This document shows positions 7,345-54,134 of a DNA stretch of 64,000 bases, in pieces. Both the position numbers and the translations under genes were made by a program. The DNA lies in the NCBI RefSeq assembly GCF_900106095.1, contig NZ_FNUD01000002.1, forward strand, positions 5,031,054-5,095,053, in the 5' to 3' direction. The DNA comes from Pseudomonas deceptionensis (lineage in GTDB: Bacteria > Pseudomonadota > Gammaproteobacteria > Pseudomonadales > Pseudomonadaceae). Below the pieces are notes generated by a model that had not been told where the DNA came from, made no database searches, and saw only the letters and a program-made list of their open reading frames with translations. The stretch's first letter is position 1. Every line of letters starts with the position of its first letter.

Positions 7345-8838
7345 ATGAAACCATCGCTAGTCCTGAGAATGGGCCAGCAGCTGACAATGACACCTCAGCT
7401 GCAACAGGCCATCCGCCTGCTCCAATTGTCGACCCTCGACCTGCAACAGGAAATCCAGGAAGCCCTGGAGTCCAATCCGATGCTCGAACGCCAGGAAGAA
7501 GGCGACGACTTCGACAATGCAGACCCCTTGGCCGACAACATCGAGCAAAAACCCAACTCCGACATTCAGGAACCCACTTACCAGGAATCCGCGCCGACTG
7601 TAGATAACCTGGACGAAGGCGACTGGAACGACCGCATCCCCAATGAGCTGCCTGTCGATACTGCCTGGGAAGACATCTACCAGACCAGCGCCAGCAGCCT
7701 GCCAAGCAGCGACGATGACGAGTGGGACTTCACCACGCGCACCTCTGCCGGCGAAAGCCTGCAAAGTCACTTGCTGTGGCAACTGAACCTGGCACCGATG
7801 TCCGACACCGACCGCCTGATCGGTGTGACCCTTATCGACTGCATCAATAACCAGGGCTACCTGGACGAAACCCTCGAAGAAATTCTCGAGGCGTTCGATC
7901 CGGAACTGGACATTGAGCTCGATGAAATCGAAGCCGTTCTGCACCGCATCCAGCAATTCGAACCGGCCGGTATCGGCGCACGCAACCTGGGCGAGTGCCT
8001 GTTGCTGCAACTGCGCCAGCTCCCGGCCAAGACGCCCTGGCTGAACGAAGCCAAACGCCTGGTCACGGACTACATCGACCTGCTGGGTGCGCGCGACTAC
8101 AGCCAGCTGATGCGCCGCATGAAACTCAAGGAAGATGAGCTGCGCCAGGTCATCGAGCTGGTGCAAAGCCTCAATCCGCGCCCGGGTTCACAAATCGAGT
8201 CCAGCGAAGCGGAATACGTCGTACCTGACGTGATCGTGCGCAAGGACAACGAACGCTGGCTCGTAGAGCTCAACCAGGAGTCCGTGCCACGCCTGCGGGT
8301 CAACCCGCAGTACGCAGGCTTCGTGCGCCGCGCCGACACCAGCGCCGACAACACCTTCATGCGCAACCAGCTGCAAGAAGCGCGCTGGTTCATCAAAAGC
8401 CTGCAAAGCCGCAACGAAACACTGATGAAAGTGGCGACTCAAATCGTCGAGCATCAACGCGGCTTTCTGGAGTATGGCGACGAGGCCATGAAGCCACTGG
8501 TACTGCATGACATTGCAGAAGCCGTCGGCATGCATGAGTCCACCATTTCCCGGGTTACGACGCAGAAGTTCATGCATACCCCGCGCGGTATTTATGAGCT
8601 CAAGTACTTTTTCTCCAGCCACGTCAGCACCTCCGAAGGCGGTGAATGCTCCTCCACCGCCATCCGTGCCATCATCAAAAAACTGGTTGCCGCTGAAAAT
8701 CAGAAAAAGCCGTTGAGTGACAGCAAGATCGCTGGTTTACTGGAGGCACAAGGTATTCAGGTAGCCCGTCGCACCGTCGCCAAGTACCGCGAATCCCTAG
8801 GGATAGCGCCTTCGAGCGAACGCAAGCGTTTGATGTAA
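7345..8838 (+). CDS. rpoN: RNA polymerase sigma-54 factor RpoN
   Basis: A 497-residue sigma-54. Region I is the Gln/Leu-rich N-terminus ([19 protein letters not shown]), followed by an acidic linker (about 50-125), the core-binding domain, the HTH, and the C-terminal RpoN box [10 protein letters not shown] (residues 474-483) that reads the -24 element. It directs transcription of nitrogen, flagellar and other regulons with enhancer-binding ATPases. The downstream hpf-ptsN-rapZ-ptsO set is the classical rpoN cluster. Confidence 0.97.
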
Positions 8839-8861
8839 GCCACGGACCCCGGCGTTTCAGT

Positions 8862-8881
8862 GGCAGGCTGCTCGGCCTGCC
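8862..8881 (+). terminator. Hairpin between rpoN and hpf
   Basis: GGCAGGC and GCCTGCC form a 7-bp stem with a 6-nt loop, followed by GCTTT. The T-run is short, so this may attenuate rather than stop transcription from rpoN into hpf. Confidence 0.35.
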
Positions 8882-8913
8882 GCTTTATGCAATGGCATCA
8901 AAGGAGAAACTGT

Positions 8914-9222
8914 ATGCAAGTCAACATCAGTGGACACCAACTGGAAGTCACCGAACCGCTACGCGCTTACATCGGCGAAAAACTCGACCGACTGGAGCGT
9001 CATTTCGACAAGATTACCAACGTACAGGTAACGATGGCGGTCGAAAAACTGAAACAGAAAATCGAAGCCACCTTGCACATCCATGGAGGAGAAGTCGTTG
9101 CCAACGCCGAGCATGACGACATGTATGCCGCCATTGATCTGCTCACTGACAAGCTTGATCGCCAACTGAAAAAGCATAAGGAAAAGACCCAAAGCCTGCT
9201 CCAGGGCGCAACCGGTCGTTAA
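8914..9222 (+). CDS. hpf: Ribosome hibernation promoting factor (short HPF)
   Basis: A 102-residue protein of the short HPF/YfiA family starting MQVNISGHQLEVTEPL. An AAAGGAGA Shine-Dalgarno 6-7 nt upstream fixes this start over an upstream in-frame one. The DMYAAIDLLTDKLDRQLKKHKEK segment is the family's ribosome-binding helix region. It blocks the decoding site and promotes 100S dimers in stationary phase. Position after rpoN is conserved. Confidence 0.94.
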   Translation: MQVNISGHQLEVTEPLRAYIGEKLDRLERHFDKITNVQVTMAVEKLKQKIEATLHIHGGEVVANAEHDDMYAAIDLLTDKLDRQLKKHKEKTQSLLQGATGR

Positions 9223-9234
9223 TACTCCCTACCC

Positions 9235-9699
9235 ATGATCCGACTTGAAAGTATCCTGACCCCCGGCCGTTCCTTGGTGAACGCGCCGGGCGGCAGTAAA
9301 AAACGCGCACTCGAACACATTGCCAACCTGATCAGCCGAGAAGTGCCTGGTCTGGAAATGCAGGACGTTTTCGAGAGCCTTATTGCCCGTGAAAAACTGG
9401 GATCAACCGGTTTTGGTAACGGCATCGCCATACCCCATTGCCGCCTCAAGGGTTGCGAGTCGCCAGTCAGCGCCTTGCTACACCTCGATGCTCCCATAGA
9501 TTTCGACGCCATCGATGGCGCGCCGGTCGACCTGCTTTTCGTTTTGCTGGTGCCCGAAGCGGCAACCGATGCACACCTGGAACTGCTTAGGCAGATCGCC
9601 AGCATGCTCGATCGCAAGGATGTGCGCGAAAAACTGCGCAGTGCACCCAGCAACGAAGCGCTGTATCAGGTTGTTCTGGACGTACAGAACGGTCATTAA
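9235..9699 (+). CDS. ptsN: Nitrogen PTS enzyme IIA (PtsN)
   Basis: A 154-residue PTS EIIA-2 type domain. The phospho-acceptor His68 lies in [12 protein letters not shown]. PtsN accepts phosphate from PtsO and regulates potassium transport, nitrogen/carbon balance and, in pseudomonads, polyhydroxyalkanoate and catabolic genes. It is 12 nt after hpf and 2 nt before rapZ, so probably co-transcribed. Confidence 0.95.
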
Positions 9700-9701
9700 T
9701 C

Positions 9702-10559
9702 ATGCGCTTAGTTATTGTCAGCGGACGCTCCGGCTCCGGTAAAAGCACCGCCCTCGCCGTCCTTGAAGACAACGGTTTCTATTGCATCGACAACCTGCCA
9801 GCCGGCTTGCTGCCTGAGCTGGCGGAACGCGCACTGATCCATACCGAACTGGCACAGCCGCTGGTGGCTGTGTCGATTGACGCGCGAAACTTGCCGAGTC
9901 ACTTGTCTCGTTTCCCACAGTTGCTTGAAGAAGTGCGCAACCGTCATATCCAGTGCGATGTCCTGTACCTGGATGCCGACGAAGAAACCTTGCTCAAGCG
10001 CTTCTCGGAAACCCGTCGGCGTCACCCTCTCAGCAGCGCCAGCCGTTCGCTGGCAGAGGCCATTCGTGACGAAACCCAGTTGCTCGGCCCGATCGCCGAC
10101 CTGGCCGACCTGACCATCAACACCACCAATCTGAACCTGTATCAGCTGCGCGACACCATCAAACTGCGTCTGCTGAACAAGCCCGAACCCGGTACTGCCT
10201 TTCTGGTTGAGTCATTCGGCTTCAAGCGCGGGATGCCGGTGGATGCCGACCTTGTGTTTGACGTTCGTTGCCTGCCCAACCCCTATTGGAAACCCGAGCT
10301 GCGGGAACAATCAGGGCTGGACCAACCGGTGGCGGAGTATTTGGCCGCCCAGCCGGATGTCGAAGAGATGTTCCAGGACATCTCCAGCTACCTGCTTAAG
10401 TGGTTACCCCGCTTTGCCGCAAGCAATCGTGCCTATGTGACCATTGGCATTGGCTGCACGGGCGGGCATCACCGCTCCGTGTACCTGACCGAACGCCTGG
10501 GCAAGTGCCTGCAAGAAACTCTGAAGAACGTTCAGGTTCGCCACCGCGACCTTACTTGA
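9702..10559 (+). CDS. rapZ: RNase adapter protein RapZ
   Basis: A 285-residue protein with an N-terminal Walker A (GRSGSGKST, residues 8-16) and a C-terminal RNA/effector-binding domain containing [12 protein letters not shown]. In enterobacteria RapZ binds glucosamine-6-P and presents sRNA GlmZ to RNase E; the Pseudomonas target may differ. It lies between ptsN and ptsO with tight spacing. Confidence 0.94.
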
Positions 10560-44870: not shown

Positions 44871-46096
<1,226 letters not shown>

Positions 46097-46120: not shown

Positions 46121-46144
46121 TGTACAAGTCGATTGACTTGTACA
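46121..46144 (+). promoter_or_regulatory. LitR-type operator 1 (TGTACA-N12-TGTACA)
   Basis: Perfect TGTACA repeats 12 nt apart, the pattern reported for LitR/CarH-like MerR regulators. The -35 hexamer TTGACT lies in the spacer, so binding would block RNA polymerase. The flanks (CTTGTACAAGT) extend the symmetry. Confidence 0.8.
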
Positions 46145-46160
46145 ACACAAGACCTATGAT
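46133..46160 (+). promoter_or_regulatory. Sigma-70 promoter of the rudS-merR-phrB operon
   Basis: TTGACT (46133-46138), a 16-nt spacer and TATGAT (46155-46160). Both hexamers are one or two bases from consensus. It lies between and across the two TGTACA operators and 57 nt before the rudS start. Confidence 0.7.
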
Positions 46161-46170
46161 GAACTCAAGT

Positions 46171-46194
46171 TGTACATCACCACAAAGATGTACA
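46171..46194 (+). promoter_or_regulatory. LitR-type operator 2 (TGTACA-N12-TGTACA)
   Basis: A second perfect copy, centred exactly 50 bp from operator 1 (about five helical turns), in the early transcribed region just downstream of the -10. The same-face spacing suggests cooperative binding or looping. Confidence 0.8.
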
Positions 46195-46217: not shown

Positions 46218-47186
46218 ATGGCCAGCACCGTCTCGTCTCACACCAAACCGAAAATCGCCATCAGCGCCTGCTTGATGGGAGCAGAAGTTCGCTTCAACGG
46301 TGGGCACAAAGAGTCGCGACTGTGCAGTCAGGCCCTCAGTGAACACTTCGATTTTGTACCCTTGTGCCCTGAAGTCGCCATCGGCCTGGGCATTCCGCGC
46401 CAGCCGATCCGGCTGATTGGCGACCCGGCTCAGCCGCAGGCGGTTGGCAGTGTCGATGCGACCCTGAACGTGACCCAGGCGCTACACGACTACGGGGTGA
46501 CGACGGCCGCCGCGCTTACCGATATTTGCGGCTACATCTTTATGCAGAAGTCACCGTCCTGCGGGCTTGAGCGGGTCAAGGTGTATCAGGACGGCGGGCG
46601 CCCCGCCGAGCTGAGCGGGCGCGGAATCTACGCCCAGGCAATTTGCGCGGCACACCCTGACTTGCCCGTGGAAGAAGACGGCCGCCTAAACGACCCCGTA
46701 CTGCGCGAAAACTTCCTGACCCGGGTGTATGCATACAGCGCCTGGCAGGCGTTGCTCAATGCGGGCATTACCCGCCGCTCACTGACAGAATTTCACGCCC
46801 GCTACAAATATCAGCTCATGGCCAACCACCCCGCGCAGTACAAAATCCTGGGTAATCTGCTCGGCAACCTGGGCAAGAGTGATGCATGCAAGATCGCCCC
46901 GCTGTACTTCAGCGAACTGATGAAAGCCCTCAAGCAATGTGCAACACGTCGCACCCACACCAATGTGCTGCAACACATCAGCGGGTATCTCAAACGGTCC
47001 ATCAGCGCCGAAGACAAGCAAGAAATGCAGCTGCTGATTACTCAATACCTGCACGGCATTGTGCCGCTGGTGGTGCCACTGACACTGCTCAAGCATCACT
47101 TTCGCCGGCACCCGACCCCCTACATTTCAAGCCAGGTCTATCTGCAACCGCACCCTGAAAACCTCAGCCTGCGCAATGCGATCTGA
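46218..47186 (+). CDS. rudS: TudS-DUF1722 fusion, RudS-type tRNA 4-thiouridine desulfidase
   Basis: A 322-residue fusion of a DUF523/TudS domain (about 10-155) and a DUF1722 domain (about 165-310). The three conserved cysteines that bind the [4Fe-4S] cluster in TudS are visible: Cys18 (ISACLMG), Cys50 (LCPEVAIGLGIPR) and Cys115 (KSPSCG). RudS proteins with this layout remove sulfur from 4-thiouridine in tRNA (established for the family, from memory). It is first in the operon behind the LitR-type promoter and is 2 nt before the MerR gene, pointing to a light-linked role. Confidence 0.85.
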   Translation: MASTVSSHTKPKIAISACLMGAEVRFNGGHKESRLCSQALSEHFDFVPLCPEVAIGLGIPRQPIRLIGDPAQPQAVGSVDATLNVTQALHDYGVTTAAALTDICGYIFMQKSPSCGLERVKVYQDGGRPAELSGRGIYAQAICAAHPDLPVEEDGRLNDPVLRENFLTRVYAYSAWQALLNAGITRRSLTEFHARYKYQLMANHPAQYKILGNLLGNLGKSDACKIAPLYFSELMKALKQCATRRTHTNVLQHISGYLKRSISAEDKQEMQLLITQYLHGIVPLVVPLTLLKHHFRRHPTPYISSQVYLQPHPENLSLRNAI

Positions 47187-47188
47187 CC

Positions 47189-48124
47189 ATGAATGACGAC
47201 CTGACCATGTCCACCCCTCCCGATGCGGACTACAGCAAGGCGCTGGCCGAGGGCTGGCAGCCGATACGTGAGGTGGCCCGCATCACCGGCGTGAATGCCG
47301 TGACCCTGCGCGCCTGGGAGCGCCGGTATGGGCTGATCATTCCCCACCGCACGGCCAAAGGCCATCGCCTGTTCTCGGCCGAACACATCCTGCGTATCCG
47401 CCACATTCTGACGTGGCTCAACCGCGGGGTAGCCGTCAGCCAGGTCAAACCGCTGCTCGATTCCCTGCCTGCATTCCGCGAACCTGCCGGCAACGACTGG
47501 CAGGCATGGCGCCAGGCTCTGACGCTGGCGATCGCCGAGCTGTCGGAACGCAGGCTCGATGACAATTTCAACCAGCTCATGTCGATGTATCCGGCCCATA
47601 CCCTGTGCGAGCAACTGTTGATTCCGCTTTTAAGCGAGCTGGAACAACGCTGGCAGGGCCAATTCGGGGCACAGATGGAGCGCGTGTTCTTCAGCTCCTG
47701 GATGCGCAGCAAACTGGGCGCCCGGATCTACCACAACAACCGCTCGCTAAAAGGGCCGCCCGTTCTGCTGATCAACCATTCAACCAAGCATTTCGAAGCG
47801 CAACTGTGGCTCACCGCCTGGTTGGTCAGCAGCAGCCATTACCCGGTTGAAGTATTCGACGCGCCCCTGCCCAACGGCGAGCTGGCCTTGGCGGTTGAAC
47901 GCCTCAAGTCACCGGCCGTGGTGCTCTATTCAAGCCAGACCCTCAACCTCCAGCAACTGCCAAAACTACTCAACGCCATGGATTGCCCGATCCTGATTGC
48001 CGGACCAACGGTATGCATCCATAGCGTCGAGCTGGCCGTATGTACAACTGAAATCCCGGGATTGTTTCTGGCTATTGATCCGCTTGACGCCCATCAACGA
48101 CTCAGCCAGCTCGGACTTTTCTAG
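47189..48124 (+). CDS. MerR-family LitR/CarH-like transcriptional regulator
   Basis: A 311-residue protein. N-terminal MerR HTH (about 24-92, IREVARITGVNAVTLRAWERRYGL) and a C-terminal cobalamin-binding-like fold. The canonical E/DxHxxG reads TKHFEAQ (199-205) and the helix with the upper EH ligand reads ERVFFSSW, so B12 binding looks lost, as in class II LitR of Pseudomonas. It probably represses the TGTACA boxes in its own operon promoter and needs a partner photoreceptor. Start at the first ATG; a second in-frame ATG is at 47207. Confidence 0.88.
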   Translation: MNDDLTMSTPPDADYSKALAEGWQPIREVARITGVNAVTLRAWERRYGLIIPHRTAKGHRLFSAEHILRIRHILTWLNRGVAVSQVKPLLDSLPAFREPAGNDWQAWRQALTLAIAELSERRLDDNFNQLMSMYPAHTLCEQLLIPLLSELEQRWQGQFGAQMERVFFSSWMRSKLGARIYHNNRSLKGPPVLLINHSTKHFEAQLWLTAWLVSSSHYPVEVFDAPLPNGELALAVERLKSPAVVLYSSQTLNLQQLPKLLNAMDCPILIAGPTVCIHSVELAVCTTEIPGLFLAIDPLDAHQRLSQLGLF

Positions 48125-48139
48125 CCCCAAGGAACCACC

Positions 48140-49585
48140 ATGCAACTGATCTGGCTGCGCAGCGATTTGCGCCACTACGACAACACCGCCCTGGGAGCCG
48201 CTGCAGAACGCGGCCCAACCGTGGCCCTGTACCTCATCAGCCCGGAACAATGGCTGGCCCATGACGACGCTCCGTGCAAAGTCGATTTTTGGCTGCGCAA
48301 CCTGCGAATCCTGAGCGACAGCCTGCAGCAGCTCAATATCCCGCTGCTGATTCGCACCGCGTCGATGTGGGATCAAGCACCCGGGGTGATCCTTGAGTTG
48401 TGCCAACAACTGGGTGTTGAAGCGGTACACGTCAATCAGGAATACGGCATCCACGAAACCCGCCGCGACCAAGCGGTTGCCCGCGCGCTCGACGCTCAGG
48501 GCATCGACTTTCACAGCTGCCTGGACCAATTGCTGTTCAAGCCCGGCAGCGTACTGACCCAAAGCGGGTCGTACTTCCAGGTGTTCGGCCAGTTCCGCAA
48601 GGTCTGCTACAGCCGTTTGCAGATAGCCTTGCCGCCGGTCACTGGCAAACCCCGGGCTCAGGCTCCACTGTCGATTAAGCGCGATGCGATTCCCGAATCG
48701 GTCACAGGCTTTGCTGCCCCAAGCGAGTCATTGCGGGCGCTATGGCCTGCCGGAGAAGACGAAGCCCGCCAGCGCCTCACACGCTTTACCGATGAGGCCA
48801 TCCACGACTACAAAGAACAGCGCGACTTGCCAGCAGCCCCCGGCACCAGCCAGCTATCGGCCTACCTGGCAGCCGGTGTCATCTCACCGCGCCAATGCCT
48901 GCACGCCGCGGTGCAAAGCAACCATGGCGAGTTCGAAACTGGCAGTGCCGGCGCTTCAACCTGGATCAGCGAACTGCTGTGGCGCGAGTTCTACAAACAT
49001 ATTCTGGTGGGCTACCCCAGGGTTTCCCGGCACCGCGCCTTCAGGCCGGACACCGAGTGTTTACCCTGGCGTGATGCCCCCCGAGATCTGGCTGCCTGGA
49101 AAGAGGGCCGCACGGGCTTTCCGATCATTGATGCGGCCATTCGCCAGTTGCTTGCAACCGGCTGGATGCACAACCGCCTGAGGATGGTGGTGGCGATGTT
49201 CCTCACCAAAAACCTGCTGATCGACTGGCGTGAAGGCGAACGCTTTTTTATGCAGCATTTGATCGACGGTGATCTGGCCGCCAACAACGGTGGCTGGCAA
49301 TGGAGTTCATCCACCGGTACCGATTCGGTGCCGTACTTCAGAATTTTCAACCCGCTGAGCCAGTCAGAACGATTCGACCCTGAAGGGCGCTTCATCAAGC
49401 ACTGGCTGCCAGAGCTCGCGAACCTGAATAAAAAACACGTGCACAACCCCGCCTCGATTGGCGGGCTGTTTGGCGCGGCCAATTACCCGGCCCCCATCGT
49501 TGATTTGAGCCAAAGCCGCGAACGCGCCCTGAGCGCTTTCAAAAATCTGCCGTCACGACAAGTGACAGAGGTGAGCCATGGCTGA
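48140..49585 (+). CDS. phrB: Deoxyribodipyrimidine photolyase
   Basis: A 481-residue class I CPD photolyase. N-terminal antenna domain (MQLIWLRSDLRHYDNTAL) and C-terminal FAD domain (WISELLWREFYKHIL; NNGGWQWSSSTGTDS). It repairs cyclobutane pyrimidine dimers with blue light. Good AAGGA site 15 nt after the MerR gene; overlaps the SDR gene by 8 nt. Confidence 0.96.
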   Translation: MQLIWLRSDLRHYDNTALGAAAERGPTVALYLISPEQWLAHDDAPCKVDFWLRNLRILSDSLQQLNIPLLIRTASMWDQAPGVILELCQQLGVEAVHVNQEYGIHETRRDQAVARALDAQGIDFHSCLDQLLFKPGSVLTQSGSYFQVFGQFRKVCYSRLQIALPPVTGKPRAQAPLSIKRDAIPESVTGFAAPSESLRALWPAGEDEARQRLTRFTDEAIHDYKEQRDLPAAPGTSQLSAYLAAGVISPRQCLHAAVQSNHGEFETGSAGASTWISELLWREFYKHILVGYPRVSRHRAFRPDTECLPWRDAPRDLAAWKEGRTGFPIIDAAIRQLLATGWMHNRLRMVVAMFLTKNLLIDWREGERFFMQHLIDGDLAANNGGWQWSSSTGTDSVPYFRIFNPLSQSERFDPEGRFIKHWLPELANLNKKHVHNPASIGGLFGAANYPAPIVDLSQSRERALSAFKNLPSRQVTEVSHG

Positions 49586-50348
49586 CGTGCGGCGGATTTG
49601 GCTCACAGGCGCCAGCAGCGGGATAGGCGCGCACATGGCTGAAGAGTTGCTGGGCAGCGGCGCCCGGGTGGCGCTGACCGCCCGCACGCTGGAACCCCTG
49701 AAAGCATTGTCCGATCGCTACCCCGGGCAAGTCTTGCTGGTGCCCGGCGACCTGACCGACAGCGTGCAGGTACAGGAAATCGGCAGATGCATCGCCCAGG
49801 CATGGGGGGCGCTGGACACCGTGATCCTCAACGCCGGGACCTGTGAATATGTCGACGTCCGTCAGTTCGACGCTGCGGTGATCGAGCGCGTGGTGCGCAC
49901 TAACCTGCTGGCAAGCAGCTACTGCATTGAGCGCGCGCTACCCTTGCTGCGCGCAGGCTCGCGGCCGCATCTGGTGGGCGTGGTCAGCTCTGTCACCTAT
50001 TGGGCACTGCCACGCGCCGAGGCTTATGGCGCATCGAAAGCCGGCCTGCGCTACTTGCTCGAATCACTGCGTATCGACCTGGCCCAGGAGGGCATTGACG
50101 TCACACTCGTCAGCCCAGGCTTTGTCGACACCCCGCTCACCGAAAAAAACGACTTCCCGATGCCCATGCGCTGGCCTGCGCAAAAGGCGGCACAGCATAT
50201 TTGCCAGCGTCTGGACAAACGCCCGCTGGAGATCGCATTTCCCGCACTGTTTATCGTAGCGCTGCGGTTGCTGGCGAACTTGCCAAAACGCCTGCAAGTT
50301 GCGCTCGGCAAACGCCTGGCCCGGACTTCTGACGGTGAATCATCATGA
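49578..50348 (+). CDS. Short-chain dehydrogenase/reductase
   Basis: A 256-residue classical SDR: cofactor motif TGASSGIGAHMAEEL and catalytic YGASKAG (YxxxK) with an upstream Ser. Substrate unknown; operon setting with lipid-modifying genes suggests an acyl or membrane-lipid substrate (inference). It overlaps phrB by 8 nt and the next gene by 4 nt. Confidence 0.9.
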   Translation: MADVRRIWLTGASSGIGAHMAEELLGSGARVALTARTLEPLKALSDRYPGQVLLVPGDLTDSVQVQEIGRCIAQAWGALDTVILNAGTCEYVDVRQFDAAVIERVVRTNLLASSYCIERALPLLRAGSRPHLVGVVSSVTYWALPRAEAYGASKAGLRYLLESLRIDLAQEGIDVTLVSPGFVDTPLTEKNDFPMPMRWPAQKAAQHICQRLDKRPLEIAFPALFIVALRLLANLPKRLQVALGKRLARTSDGESS

Positions 50349-51592
50349 AAATCGCGATCATTGGCAGCGGTATTTCCGGGCTGACCTGCGGCTACTTGTT
50401 GCATAAGGCACACGACATCAGCGTGTTCGAAGCCAGTGACTGGGTCGGCGGCCACACCCATACCGTCAACGTGGATGTCAAAGGCCAGTCATATGCCGTG
50501 GACACCGGATTCATCGTGTTCAACGACTGGACCTACCCCAACTTCATCAAGCTGATGGACCAATTGGGGGTTCGCTCCAAAGCCACGCAGATGAGTTTTT
50601 CCGTCCACGACACCGACAGCAGGCTCGAATACAACGGCAACACACTCAACAGTTTGTTTGCCCAGCGCAGCAACCTCTTGTCACCCGGCTTCTGGGGCAT
50701 GTTGCGCGATATTTTGCGCTTCAATCGCGAAGCCGTCCGCGACCTGGAAGAGCATCGTATTGACAGCGATATCCGGCTGGGCGACTACCTGCAGCAGCGC
50801 GGTTATGGCCGCCGCTTTATCGAGCACTACATCGTGCCGATGGGCGCGGCGATCTGGTCCATGTCGCTGGACGAGATGCAGAACTTTCCGCTGCAGTTTT
50901 TTGTGCGTTTCTTCAAAAACCACGGTTTGCTAAGCGTCACTAATCGCCCGCAATGGCGAGTGATTGAAGGCGGATCAAGCGCGTATGTGAAACCCCTGAG
51001 TGCAGGTTTTGCCGACAAGATTCGTCTGAACTGCCCGGTCAAACGTGTCGAACGCGATAAAGACGGGGTACTGATCCACAGTGCCGCCGGCAGTGAGTAT
51101 TTCGACAAGGTGATTTTTGCCTGCCACAGCAATCAGGCCTTGAAAATGCTGGCGCGCCCTTCCGTGGCCGAAGCGCAAATTCTGGGTGCCATGCCCTATG
51201 CCGAAAACGATGTGGTGCTGCACACCGACACTCGCCTGTTGCCCAATCGAAAACTGGCGTGGGCAAGCTGGAATTATCGCTTGGGCAATGCCGGCCCAAG
51301 GGGCGCTGCGGTCACCTACAACATGAATATCCTGCAGGGTATTCAGAGTGAGACGACCTTCTGCGTCAGCCTTAATCAGAGCGTAGCCATCGATCCTCTC
51401 AAAATACTGGCCAGTTACACCTACGCCCATCCGCAATACAGCCTGGGCGCCGTGGCGGCTCAAGCCCGTTGGCAAGAGTTGCTGGGCGCACACCACAGTT
51501 TTTACTGTGGCGCGTATTGGGCCAACGGGTTCCATGAAGACGGTGTCGCCAGTGCGCTGCGCGTCGCGGCAGCCTTTGGCCAGCAGCTATGA
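50345..51592 (+). CDS. FAD-dependent amine-oxidase-like oxidoreductase
   Basis: A 415-residue NAD(P)/FAD-binding protein: IIGSGISGLTCGYLL at the N-terminus and GAYWANGFHEDG near the C-terminus. It belongs to the family often found next to DUF1365 and cyclopropane-synthase-like genes, and could desaturate or oxidise a fatty acyl chain. It overlaps both neighbours by 4 nt (ATGA), so translation is coupled. Confidence 0.9.
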   Translation: MKIAIIGSGISGLTCGYLLHKAHDISVFEASDWVGGHTHTVNVDVKGQSYAVDTGFIVFNDWTYPNFIKLMDQLGVRSKATQMSFSVHDTDSRLEYNGNTLNSLFAQRSNLLSPGFWGMLRDILRFNREAVRDLEEHRIDSDIRLGDYLQQRGYGRRFIEHYIVPMGAAIWSMSLDEMQNFPLQFFVRFFKNHGLLSVTNRPQWRVIEGGSSAYVKPLSAGFADKIRLNCPVKRVERDKDGVLIHSAAGSEYFDKVIFACHSNQALKMLARPSVAEAQILGAMPYAENDVVLHTDTRLLPNRKLAWASWNYRLGNAGPRGAAVTYNMNILQGIQSETTFCVSLNQSVAIDPLKILASYTYAHPQYSLGAVAAQARWQELLGAHHSFYCGAYWANGFHEDGVASALRVAAAFGQQL

Positions 51593-52389
51593 ACAGCGCC
51601 CTGTACAGCGGCTGGATCGCCCATCGACGCTTTGCGCCGACCACCCATGCATTCCGCTATCAAATAGGCTTGCTGTACCTGGATCTGGACGAACAAGACG
51701 CTGTCCTCGCGCTATCGCCACTGGCCGGCAAAAGCCGCTTTGCGCCGTTTTCTTTTCGTGAAACCGATTACCTGAAAACATACACGGCAACCGGCATGCG
51801 CCTGATCGATGCGGTTCGTCAGCAAGTTGCCGTGGCTTTGGGGCATACACCGCAAGGCGCGATCTGTTTGCTGACGCAAGCCCGCAGCTGGGGGTTGTCC
51901 TTCAACCCGGTGAGTTTCTTTTACTGCTACGAGGCTGACGGAAAACTGGCCGCCATCTTGTGCGAAGTCACCAATACGCCTTGGCGCGAACGCTATCACT
52001 ACGTGCTCCCGGCTCAGGGTGACGGCTTTCAGCATGTCGCCGTGGCCAAAGCCTTTCACGTCTCACCCTTTCTTCCTCCCGATCTGGAATACCGCATGAG
52101 CTTCAGCCCGCCGGACACCCGGCTCGGGGTGCATATGGCGGACTGGCAGGGCGACCTGAAAATGTTCGATGCCACCCTCAACCTGCAACGCACGACGCTG
52201 GACCGCGCAGGGCTGCATCGTTACTTGCGTCAGTTCCCGTGGATGACCGCCAAAACCTGTCTGGCCATCTACTGGCAAGCCTTGCGCCTGCTGCTCAAGC
52301 GCACACCGATTTTCCCCCATCAGGCCGCCGACGGCGCCTTTCGCATTGCCGCCCTGCAACCCAAGGATCAACGCCATGAAGAGCCCTAG
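51589..52389 (+). CDS. DUF1365-family protein
   Basis: A 266-residue DUF1365 protein, starting MNSALYSGWIAHRRFAP and containing SFNPVSFFYCYE. Function is unknown; the family almost always sits between an FAD oxidoreductase and a CFA-like methyltransferase gene. It overlaps the preceding gene by 4 nt and the next by 14 nt. Confidence 0.9.
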   Translation: MNSALYSGWIAHRRFAPTTHAFRYQIGLLYLDLDEQDAVLALSPLAGKSRFAPFSFRETDYLKTYTATGMRLIDAVRQQVAVALGHTPQGAICLLTQARSWGLSFNPVSFFYCYEADGKLAAILCEVTNTPWRERYHYVLPAQGDGFQHVAVAKAFHVSPFLPPDLEYRMSFSPPDTRLGVHMADWQGDLKMFDATLNLQRTTLDRAGLHRYLRQFPWMTAKTCLAIYWQALRLLLKRTPIFPHQAADGAFRIAALQPKDQRHEEP

Positions 52390-53647
52390 CCTGGTTAGTA
52401 AACCCTCACTGTCCACGGCCCATAATCTGACCAGCGCATTGCTGCGCCGCGGGGTCATGCGCCAACTGAGCCAGTTGAAAAACGGTCATCTGGTCGTGAT
52501 CGAAAACGGCGAACGCCTCATGTTCGGTGATTGCAGCGCAGGCCTGGTGGCCGAAGTACACATCCACGACACAAACCTCTGGGGCATGATCGCCAGCAGC
52601 GGCTCGATTGGCGCGGGCGAAGCGTTTATCCATGGTTACTGGAGCTCACCCGACCTGACCAAGGTGGTCCGCGTACTGGTCAGCAATATGGCTGTGCTCG
52701 ACGCCATGGAAGACGGGCTGGCACGCCTGGGCCGCCCGCTGATCCGTGCTTTGCACTGGATCAACCGCAATACCCGCAAAGGCTCGCAAAAGAATATTGC
52801 CGCGCATTACGACTTGGGTAACGAGATGTTCGAGCAGTTCCTCGACCCCACCATGATGTATTCGGCAGCGCAGTTCCTTAACGAGGACGACACCCTGGAG
52901 CAAGCCCAGCTCAATAAGTTGCAGCGTATTTGCCAGAAGCTCGACCTCAAACCCGAAGACCACTTGCTCGAAATCGGTACCGGCTGGGGCAGCATGGCGT
53001 TGTTTGCCGCACAGCATTACGGCTGCAAAGTCACGACCACTACCTTGTCCAAGGAGCAATTCGACTACACCAAAGCCCGTATCGAAGCCTTGGGCTTACA
53101 AGATCAGGTGACTTTGCTACTGGAGGATTACCGCGATTTAACAGGGCAATACGACAAGCTGGTGTCGATCGAGATGATCGAAGCGGTCGGGCATCGCTTT
53201 TTGCCAAGCTACTTCAAACAATGCTCCCACCTGCTCAAGCCCCATGGGTTGATGCTGCTGCAAGCCATCACCATCCGGGAACAACGTTACGAGCAAGCCA
53301 AAACCAGCGTGGACTTTATCCAGCGCTACATATTCCCGGGCGGTGCGCTGCCCAGCGTGCAAAAAATGCTCGAAATCGTCGGCAAAGACACGGACATGAA
53401 CCTGATGCACATGGAGGACTTTGGCCTGCACTACGCCAAAACCTTGCGTCTGTGGCATGAGAACTTTCGCCGCGCCCACGGGCGTTTGACTGAATTGGGC
53501 TACGACGAATACTTTCTGCGCCTGTGGGAGTTTTACCTGTGCTACTGCGAAGGCGGCTTTCTTGAGCGCAGCATCGGCACCGCGCAATTGTTGCTGGCCA
53601 AGCCGGCGGCGATGCCTGCGCCGTTGCTCGGGCGGTTTAGTGCTTAA
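52376..53647 (+). CDS. Cyclopropane-fatty-acyl-phospholipid synthase-like methyltransferase
   Basis: A 423-residue CFA/UfaM-family enzyme with the SAM motif LEIGTGWGSMALF (about 198-210) and the C-terminal active-site Cys region FYLCYCEGGFLERSIG. Members methylate unsaturated acyl chains of phospholipids to give cyclopropane, methyl-branched or furan-type acids. Light induction of such a gene (ufaM) has been reported in P. putida (from memory). The start MKSPSLVSKPS overlaps DUF1365. Confidence 0.9.
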   Translation: MKSPSLVSKPSLSTAHNLTSALLRRGVMRQLSQLKNGHLVVIENGERLMFGDCSAGLVAEVHIHDTNLWGMIASSGSIGAGEAFIHGYWSSPDLTKVVRVLVSNMAVLDAMEDGLARLGRPLIRALHWINRNTRKGSQKNIAAHYDLGNEMFEQFLDPTMMYSAAQFLNEDDTLEQAQLNKLQRICQKLDLKPEDHLLEIGTGWGSMALFAAQHYGCKVTTTTLSKEQFDYTKARIEALGLQDQVTLLLEDYRDLTGQYDKLVSIEMIEAVGHRFLPSYFKQCSHLLKPHGLMLLQAITIREQRYEQAKTSVDFIQRYIFPGGALPSVQKMLEIVGKDTDMNLMHMEDFGLHYAKTLRLWHENFRRAHGRLTELGYDEYFLRLWEFYLCYCEGGFLERSIGTAQLLLAKPAAMPAPLLGRFSA

Positions 53648-54134
53648 GAATCTGGCCAATGCCGGGCTGTTCCAGCTCGGCTGGTTTGCTTGTGTGCTGG
53701 GGGGCAACAGCCTGTGGCTAGTGCTGGCAGGCGCCGCTTTGATGGCGCATCTGCTGTGGATAAGTCGCTCAATGGCAGAAGTCCGTTTAGTGCTCGTCGT
53801 GTGTTTACTCGGCACTGCTGTCGACAGCCTGCTGCTCAATGCCGGGGTTTTCGTCTTCAAGCAACCTGGCTTTTTGATTCCGTTCTGGCTGGTTGTGTTG
53901 TGGGCATTACTGGCCATCACCTTGAACCATTGCCTGGCCTGGACGGCCAAGCCTTTGTGGCGCGCCATTTTGCTGGGGGCTATCAGTGGGCCGTTGTCGT
54001 ATTACGCCGGGCAGCGGCTGGGAGCGGTGCAGTTCCCTTTGGGCCTGTGGCCGACACTGGCCGGGTTGAGCCTGTTGTGGGCGGGGTTGTTTCCATTGCT
54101 GAACGCCTGTAGCCGCTACCGCAGGCTGCGATAA
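53640..54134 (+). CDS. DUF2878 membrane protein
   Basis: A 164-residue membrane protein with about five hydrophobic segments, starting at GTG 53640 (VLKNLANAGLFQLGWF), which overlaps the methyltransferase stop. Its last ten residues (ACSRYRRLR) are encoded by a family-A REP half element at 54106-54134, so the C-terminus may be recent. Function unknown; probably the last gene of the light operon. Confidence 0.83.
   Translation: MLKNLANAGLFQLGWFACVLGGNSLWLVLAGAALMAHLLWISRSMAEVRLVLVVCLLGTAVDSLLLNAGVFVFKQPGFLIPFWLVVLWALLAITLNHCLAWTAKPLWRAILLGAISGPLSYYAGQRLGAVQFPLGLWPTLAGLSLLWAGLFPLLNACSRYRRLR

Follow-up and report, generated by a model that had tools for sequence, protein, structure and literature searches.

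A predicted tRNA 4-thiouridine desulfidase gene at the head of a conserved LitR-PhrB light operon in Pseudomonas deceptionensis and its relatives

In Pseudomonas deceptionensis the gene for a predicted tRNA 4-thiouridine desulfidase, rudS, stands first in a conserved operon of the pplR1/pmlR1 light type, and in our judgement it is quite probable that light-induced removal of 4-thiouridine (s4U) there shields tRNA while the photolyase PhrB, encoded two genes further on, repairs DNA. The stretch of DNA analysed (the window) is 64,000 nt of contig NZ_FNUD01000002.1, from 5,031,054 to 5,095,053. The link of rudS to a light operon is real and common in the genus, and it has been described in print before: an earlier note on this DNA knew of no account of RudS as part of a LitR regulon, a view overtaken by Jamontas et al. 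2024 (PMC11417400), where RudS is already placed in a Pseudomonas LitR-PhrB operon. Both the system and the idea of light-induced s4U removal are known from that paper, and the box arrangement from Maruyama et al. 2022 (PMC9758184). Since the idea is in print, the value of what follows lies in supporting comparative evidence, namely a genus-wide count (141 of 149 genomes have a full-length rudS), and in natural deletions that make tests easier. Should the idea prove true in vivo, a photoreceptor would command the removal of a tRNA modification, and protection of tRNA from light would be linked to DNA repair.

Table 1. The promoter region and genes of the presumed rudS operon, with positions in the window
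Feature	Position	Strand	Remarks
LitR/PplR box 1, TGTACA-N12-TGTACA	46121..46144		Exact; overlaps -35 element; predicted site
Sigma-70-type promoter TTGACT-N16-TATGAT	46133..46160	+	Sequence match; same hexamers and spacing as P6650
LitR/PplR box 2, TGTACA-N12-TGTACA	46171..46194		Exact; between predicted transcription start and ATG; predicted site
rudS, TudS-DUF1722 tRNA 4-thiouridine desulfidase (predicted)	46218..47186	+	322 aa, ATG start; PF04463 + PF08349
Class II LitR (PplR1/PmlR1-like), MerR family	47189..48124	+	HTH PF13411, B12-binding_2 bundle PF02607
phrB, CPD DNA photolyase	48140..49585	+	PF03441/PF00875; NF007955 513 bits versus 506-bit cut-off
Short-chain dehydrogenase (SDR)	49578..50348	+	PF00106; start overlaps phrB end by 8 nt
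FAD-dependent amine-oxidase-like oxidoreductase	50345..51592	+	PF01593
DUF1365 protein	51589..52389	+	PF07103
Cyclopropane-fatty-acid-synthase-like methyltransferase	52376..53647	+	PF02353
DUF2878 ORF, last gene of presumed operon	53562..54134	+	PF11086; start codon uncertain, overlaps preceding gene

The earlier note had recognized a TudS-DUF1722 protein with Cys18, Cys50 and Cys115, and reading frame, Pfam domains and alignment agree with it. The TudS domain (PF04463, 2-thiour_desulf) takes up residues 13-154 (E 8.7e-36), with DUF1722 (PF08349, residues 197-313, E 1.5e-40) fused C-terminally to it, and the three cysteines, together with Glu52, Arg61, Ser112 and Ser114, are invariant among 12 aligned sequences of relatives ranging down to 47% identity. 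At an offset of +1 these are the cluster and catalytic residues reported to be essential (PMC11417400) in the Pseudomonas putida enzyme RudS_KT (there Glu51, Arg60, Ser111 and Ser113), in a mapping made from residue numbers only, whose offset seems to shift within DUF1722. To judge from its domains and residues, the window RudS appears to take sulfur off 4-thiouridine in tRNA. Its closest named relatives are those of Pseudomonas psychrophila (87%) and P. helleri (86%), and the sole solved relative detectable by sequence (E <= 0.001) is a stand-alone TudS, in 6z92 and sister entries. ThiI, needed for s4U synthesis and a usual though not strictly defining companion of RudS, is encoded in the same genome (TIGR00342, 323.4 bits versus a cut-off of 264.5). 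The genome also has a stand-alone TudS-domain paralogue (C2:1113433-1113861, L016; PF04463, 143 bits).

That rudS is the first gene behind a LitR-type promoter and only 2 nt from the regulator gene, as the same note had it, is borne out by the two exact boxes and the TTGACT-N16-TATGAT promoter upstream, and by a rudS stop that ends at 47186 with litR starting at 47189. Transcription would start some 50 nt 5' of the rudS ATG. With up to two mismatches allowed there are five box sites in the window versus a shuffle mean of 0.81, five being reached in 0 of 100 shuffles. Genome-wide (5.10 Mb) the published degenerate consensus, TRTACA-N12-TGTAYA, occurs exactly at four places versus 0 for a reversed-pattern control; only exact sites stand out, since TGTACA-N12-TGTACA at one mismatch gives 10 places versus 6 for the control. 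Two of the four exact sites precede rudS; a third lies just ahead of a photolyase-related gene (PF04244; L019, C2:4121990-4122013), and the fourth overlaps with the beginning of a DCC1-like ORF that is followed by folE (L020; C2:4622323-4622346). A small gene for a tryptophan-rich DUF2389 protein lies at 45881-46096 of the window, between an FAD oxidoreductase gene and the light promoter, and a similar frame is found at the same place in a genome lacking rudS (G014).

For the regulator, the LitR-type control of the earlier note fits, and its assignment can be refined to class II LitR: the protein has a MerR HTH and a 4-helix B12-binding_2 bundle (PF02607) and is without a B12-binding domain, a Pfam search for PF02310 at E <= 0.001 having found none, which is the make-up given for class II LitR in PMC9758184. 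Because the bundle is present but a PF02310 match absent, the operon's LitR is probably not the photoreceptor itself. What then sees the light? About 68 kb away the same genome has a second LitR (35% identity; L018:5962-7143), and near it a short LOV protein (L018:4823-5290, 155 aa, PAS_9, without effector) whose motif DCRFLQ holds the adduct cysteine (Cys53, counted on the translation) and whose best NCBIfam match, YtvA-family, is below its cut-off. This cluster (C2:5003000-5018000) also contains folE, together with an SDR gene where folM would be expected and a PF02152 gene where folX would be. It resembles the pmlR2/PmSB-LOV locus of P. mendocina, and by that analogy the LOV protein, rather than B12, is most likely what senses blue light. 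Class II LitRs are called B12-dependent in PMC11417400 and are argued in PMC9758184 to be unable to bind B12; control through a B12 chromophore was considered and held to be less likely, given the latter argument and the lack of a PF02310 match in LitR.

How general is the arrangement? Matches to rudS are present in 148 of 149 sampled genus genomes, full length in 141, partial in four (G027, G037, G083 and G129) and as only a weak TudS-like match in three (G079, G093 and G123), with no match in one (G014); the full-length and partial calls rest on match coverage, not activity. Among 80 Pseudomonadaceae loci, the best 80 of 587 candidates, litR follows on the same strand in 79 and phrB in 79, the single miss for both (L116) being cut by its contig end. 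In the same best 80, two boxes with at most one mismatch each were found in 66 and at least one in 78 (the count for L106 rests on only 272 nt of upstream sequence), none at that threshold in L120 and L123, and TTGACN-N16-TATGAT in 60. In another count, of 31 in-family loci, rudS is followed in line by litR and phrB without exception (31/31), with two boxes, at up to two mismatches, in 30.

Several loci have features of their own. In Pseudomonas citri (L128) the distance between the starts of rudS and phrB is about 1.17 kb, versus the usual 1.92 kb or so, and litR seems shortened; in G513 (L224 / L228) rudS is directly before phrB, litR being missing between them. Two light loci lie side by side in Stutzerimonas stutzeri (L155), with a LOV gene and folE some 4-6 kb upstream of rudS, and in L160 (G310), with a LOV gene and a LitR paralogue at a like distance. 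Proteins of PAS-GGDEF-EAL type (so named from reading translations) near rudS in four loci were considered as possible LOV proteins and set aside, since a LOV motif search matched L160 alone.

Beyond the Pseudomonadaceae, 113 of 274 genomes in a wider sample of the class match rudS, part of the matches covering the TudS domain only, and a box search (up to two mismatches) of 28 outside-family loci gave 0/28. Wider flanks were taken for 39 of the 42 best-scoring outside-family matches and for one in-family locus, L160. G344 and G235, whose matches lie near the start of a contig, were left out, as were an additional G412 copy and many weaker matches. A photolyase-like match is found in nine of the 39 and a LitR match in seven; one or more of the light-cluster genes looked for turn up in 17, in L194 and L199 through a distant CFA-like match alone, and 22 have none in their flanks. 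There is no box pair in the 39, L193 having one 2-mismatch site. Some light links here may be missed, since about ten flanks are cut by contig ends and BLAST used proteins of the window genome only. Since 22 of the 39 loci are without the light-cluster genes sought, RudS is not everywhere a light gene. One outside-family match (G237, L175) has a stop inside it.

Nature has also made some deletions. A ThiI match (E <= 1e-30) is absent from four of 398 genus genomes. In one of these, G014 (a single contig of 3.7 Mb, completeness 100), no ThiI scores above the cut-off, and of the light operon rudS alone is gone. The promoter is kept, as are the two exact boxes, litR, phrB and the genes after them (L212, G014:C1:974000-992000, 8469-9862), and the end of a short leftover frame overlaps the beginning of litR. 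G589 (completeness 100, about 70 contigs) has no ThiI match, yet a full-length rudS, as have G495 (completeness 78) and G513 (77), whose assemblies are incomplete. That rudS loss follows ThiI loss was accordingly not adopted; near-complete ThiI-less genomes being split, one for and one against, no ThiI dependence is claimed. In three genomes rudS is absent although ThiI is present. In G079 neither rudS nor the first litR is left, and two exact boxes stand directly before phrB, where the promoter pattern gave no match; G093 is without rudS and litR, with no box found in the short gap before phrB; and G123 lacks rudS and any LitR match, its sole photolyase match being distant (30% identity). Four further genomes, all with ThiI, have truncated genes whose frame is open into DUF1722 with litR next (L216, L217, L215 and L218 for G037, G083, G027 and G129, respectively). 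Most of the TudS domain is lost in G037, behind one box, and in G083, behind two; G129 lacks an internal segment in which the Arg61 region lies; and only a divergent DUF1722 part is kept in G027, behind one box. These natural deletions are few and may include assembly error.

Upon the genes, domains, boxes and promoter found here, the LOV, second LitR and ThiI genes of the same genome, and their conservation, the following course of events may be envisaged. In the dark a class II LitR, the operon's own and/or its paralogue, would occupy both boxes and keep the TTGACT/TATGAT promoter shut. Blue light would activate the short LOV protein encoded near the paralogue, and LOV would pull the repressor off, permitting transcription of rudS-litR-phrB and the rest of the operon. 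The TudS domain of RudS, with its presumed [4Fe-4S] cluster, would then remove the sulfur from 4-thiouridine at tRNA position 8 while DUF1722 docks the tRNA anticodon arm, leaving a smaller pool of near-UV-crosslinkable tRNA while PhrB repairs DNA. For orthologues, light induction of the operon, the footprint, LOV anti-repression and desulfidase activity have been shown in print (PMC9758184, PMC11417400); that all steps hold in the window organism, that light there really lowers s4U and that s4U loss protects it, we infer.

The light-induced removal of the chromophore that the earlier note put forward stands in part: function, LitR control and photoprotective logic fit both the sequence and the orthologue work, and a literature search covering few subscription journals found no measurement for Pseudomonas in which light brings down the 4-thiouridine of tRNA. 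The P. aeruginosa tRNA preprint PMC10962704 and the reviews PMC12503941 and PMC12548931 mention s4U or RudS, with no light-s4U measurement found in the portions available. Light-induced s4U de-modification is proposed as a hypothesis in PMC11417400; the published support found consists of RudS overexpression in E. coli, which lowered s4U and shortened the near-UV growth delay, and of an older Enterobacter cloacae observation cited there. For P. putida, PMC11014904 reports PP_0738-PP_0742 to be up-regulated in a co-culture although illumination was equal; that cluster may answer to other signals besides light.

Shielding is not the only use to which induced desulfuration might be put. If s4U crosslinking is a near-UV sensor that raises ppGpp, the main job of light-induced RudS would be, in place of shielding tRNA, to tune the stringent response by damping or ending the alarm, a possibility discussed in PMC11417400, with citation of Salmonella s4U-less mutants that are more sensitive to near-UV killing. 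We hold it to be possible but rather doubtful: RudS_KT activity was unchanged by (p)ppGpp in vitro, and on overexpression of RudS_KT in E. coli s4U went down and the near-UV growth delay fell from about 105 to 60 min (PMC11417400), a shortening that plain chromophore removal fits as well. Far harder to credit, indeed very improbable, is that rudS is a mere neighbour, expressed constitutively, the boxes or the promoter being there by chance. The two relatives of the best 80 in which no box was found are all that speaks for this; against it are the exact consensus sites of the 5.1 Mb genome (four versus none in the control), placed before expected light genes, the box or boxes of 78 of those 80 relatives (best of 587), and P. 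mendocina, where the promoter at the same place has been footprinted and the operon is light-induced (PMC9758184).

The deletions invite another thought, namely that rudS serves also, or mainly, as a translational leader for litR and phrB, with DUF1722 having a use of its own or only an open frame being kept. The 2-nt gap to litR, the frames left open into DUF1722 in G037, G083 and G129, and the remnant frame of G014 that ends over the litR start are what would be expected of a leader. However, the retention of a full-length rudS by 141 of 149 genomes and the catalytic residues invariant across 12 divergent sequences point to selection on catalysis, G079 lost rudS and litR together, and in so few cases in-frame deletions could be chance, so that a leader role is unlikely. 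Slightly less so, though still improbable, is that RudS is an exchangeable module that can be cut out where s4U synthesis is lost, with a leader frame that may couple litR, and with DUF1722-only copies signifying a desulfidase-independent job; within such a scheme the second job of DUF1722 in the light response may be to bind tRNA or to couple translation.

Light-induced desulfuration as tRNA photoprotection, the reading preferred here, draws on two bodies of work with which the window can be compared. One is that on RudS itself: P. putida RudS has been assayed and desulfidase activity reported, RudS genes are described as often lying in light-responsive operons, a Pseudomonas PhrB-LitR-RudS operon being named, and ThiI is given for 94% of species with DUF1722 (PMC11417400). 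Like RudS_KT (PP_0741 of P. putida KT2440) the window RudS is a TudS-DUF1722 fusion with the same three cysteines and, at +1, the catalytic Glu, Arg and two Ser; unlike it, it is from a different species and known from sequence alone. Several tested non-catalytic positions of RudS_KT differ in the window protein at the +1 offset, partly because that offset seems to shift within DUF1722. In RudS_PP of Pseudomonas sp. MIL19 the cysteines are numbered identically (Cys18/50/115), and the window rudS, like the RudS of that paper, belongs to a LitR-PhrB light operon.

The other is that on P. mendocina NBRC 14162 (PMC9758184). The clustering of a second class II LitR, a short LOV protein (Cys53) and pterin genes in the window genome is like that of the PmlR2/PmSB-LOV/folM-folE-folX locus; LOV anti-repression is a feature of the P. 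mendocina locus, and the cluster of the window organism is known from its genes. The pmlR1 operon comprises PME6650, LitR, PhrB, an SDR, an FAD oxidoreductase, UfaM and hypothetical proteins. Unlike the window operon it is listed as nine genes, including the hypothetical PME6635, which its number would place between phrB and the SDR gene. By gene order the CFA-synthase-like methyltransferase gene of the window corresponds in position to ufaM (furan fatty acid synthase), and PME6650, there called hypothetical, would be rudS. P6650, the promoter of that light-inducible operon, whose Sites 1 and 2 were footprinted with PmlR2, is matched by the window promoter: TTGACT-N16-TATGAT, with Site 1 lying over the -35 element and Site 2 after the transcription start but before the ATG.
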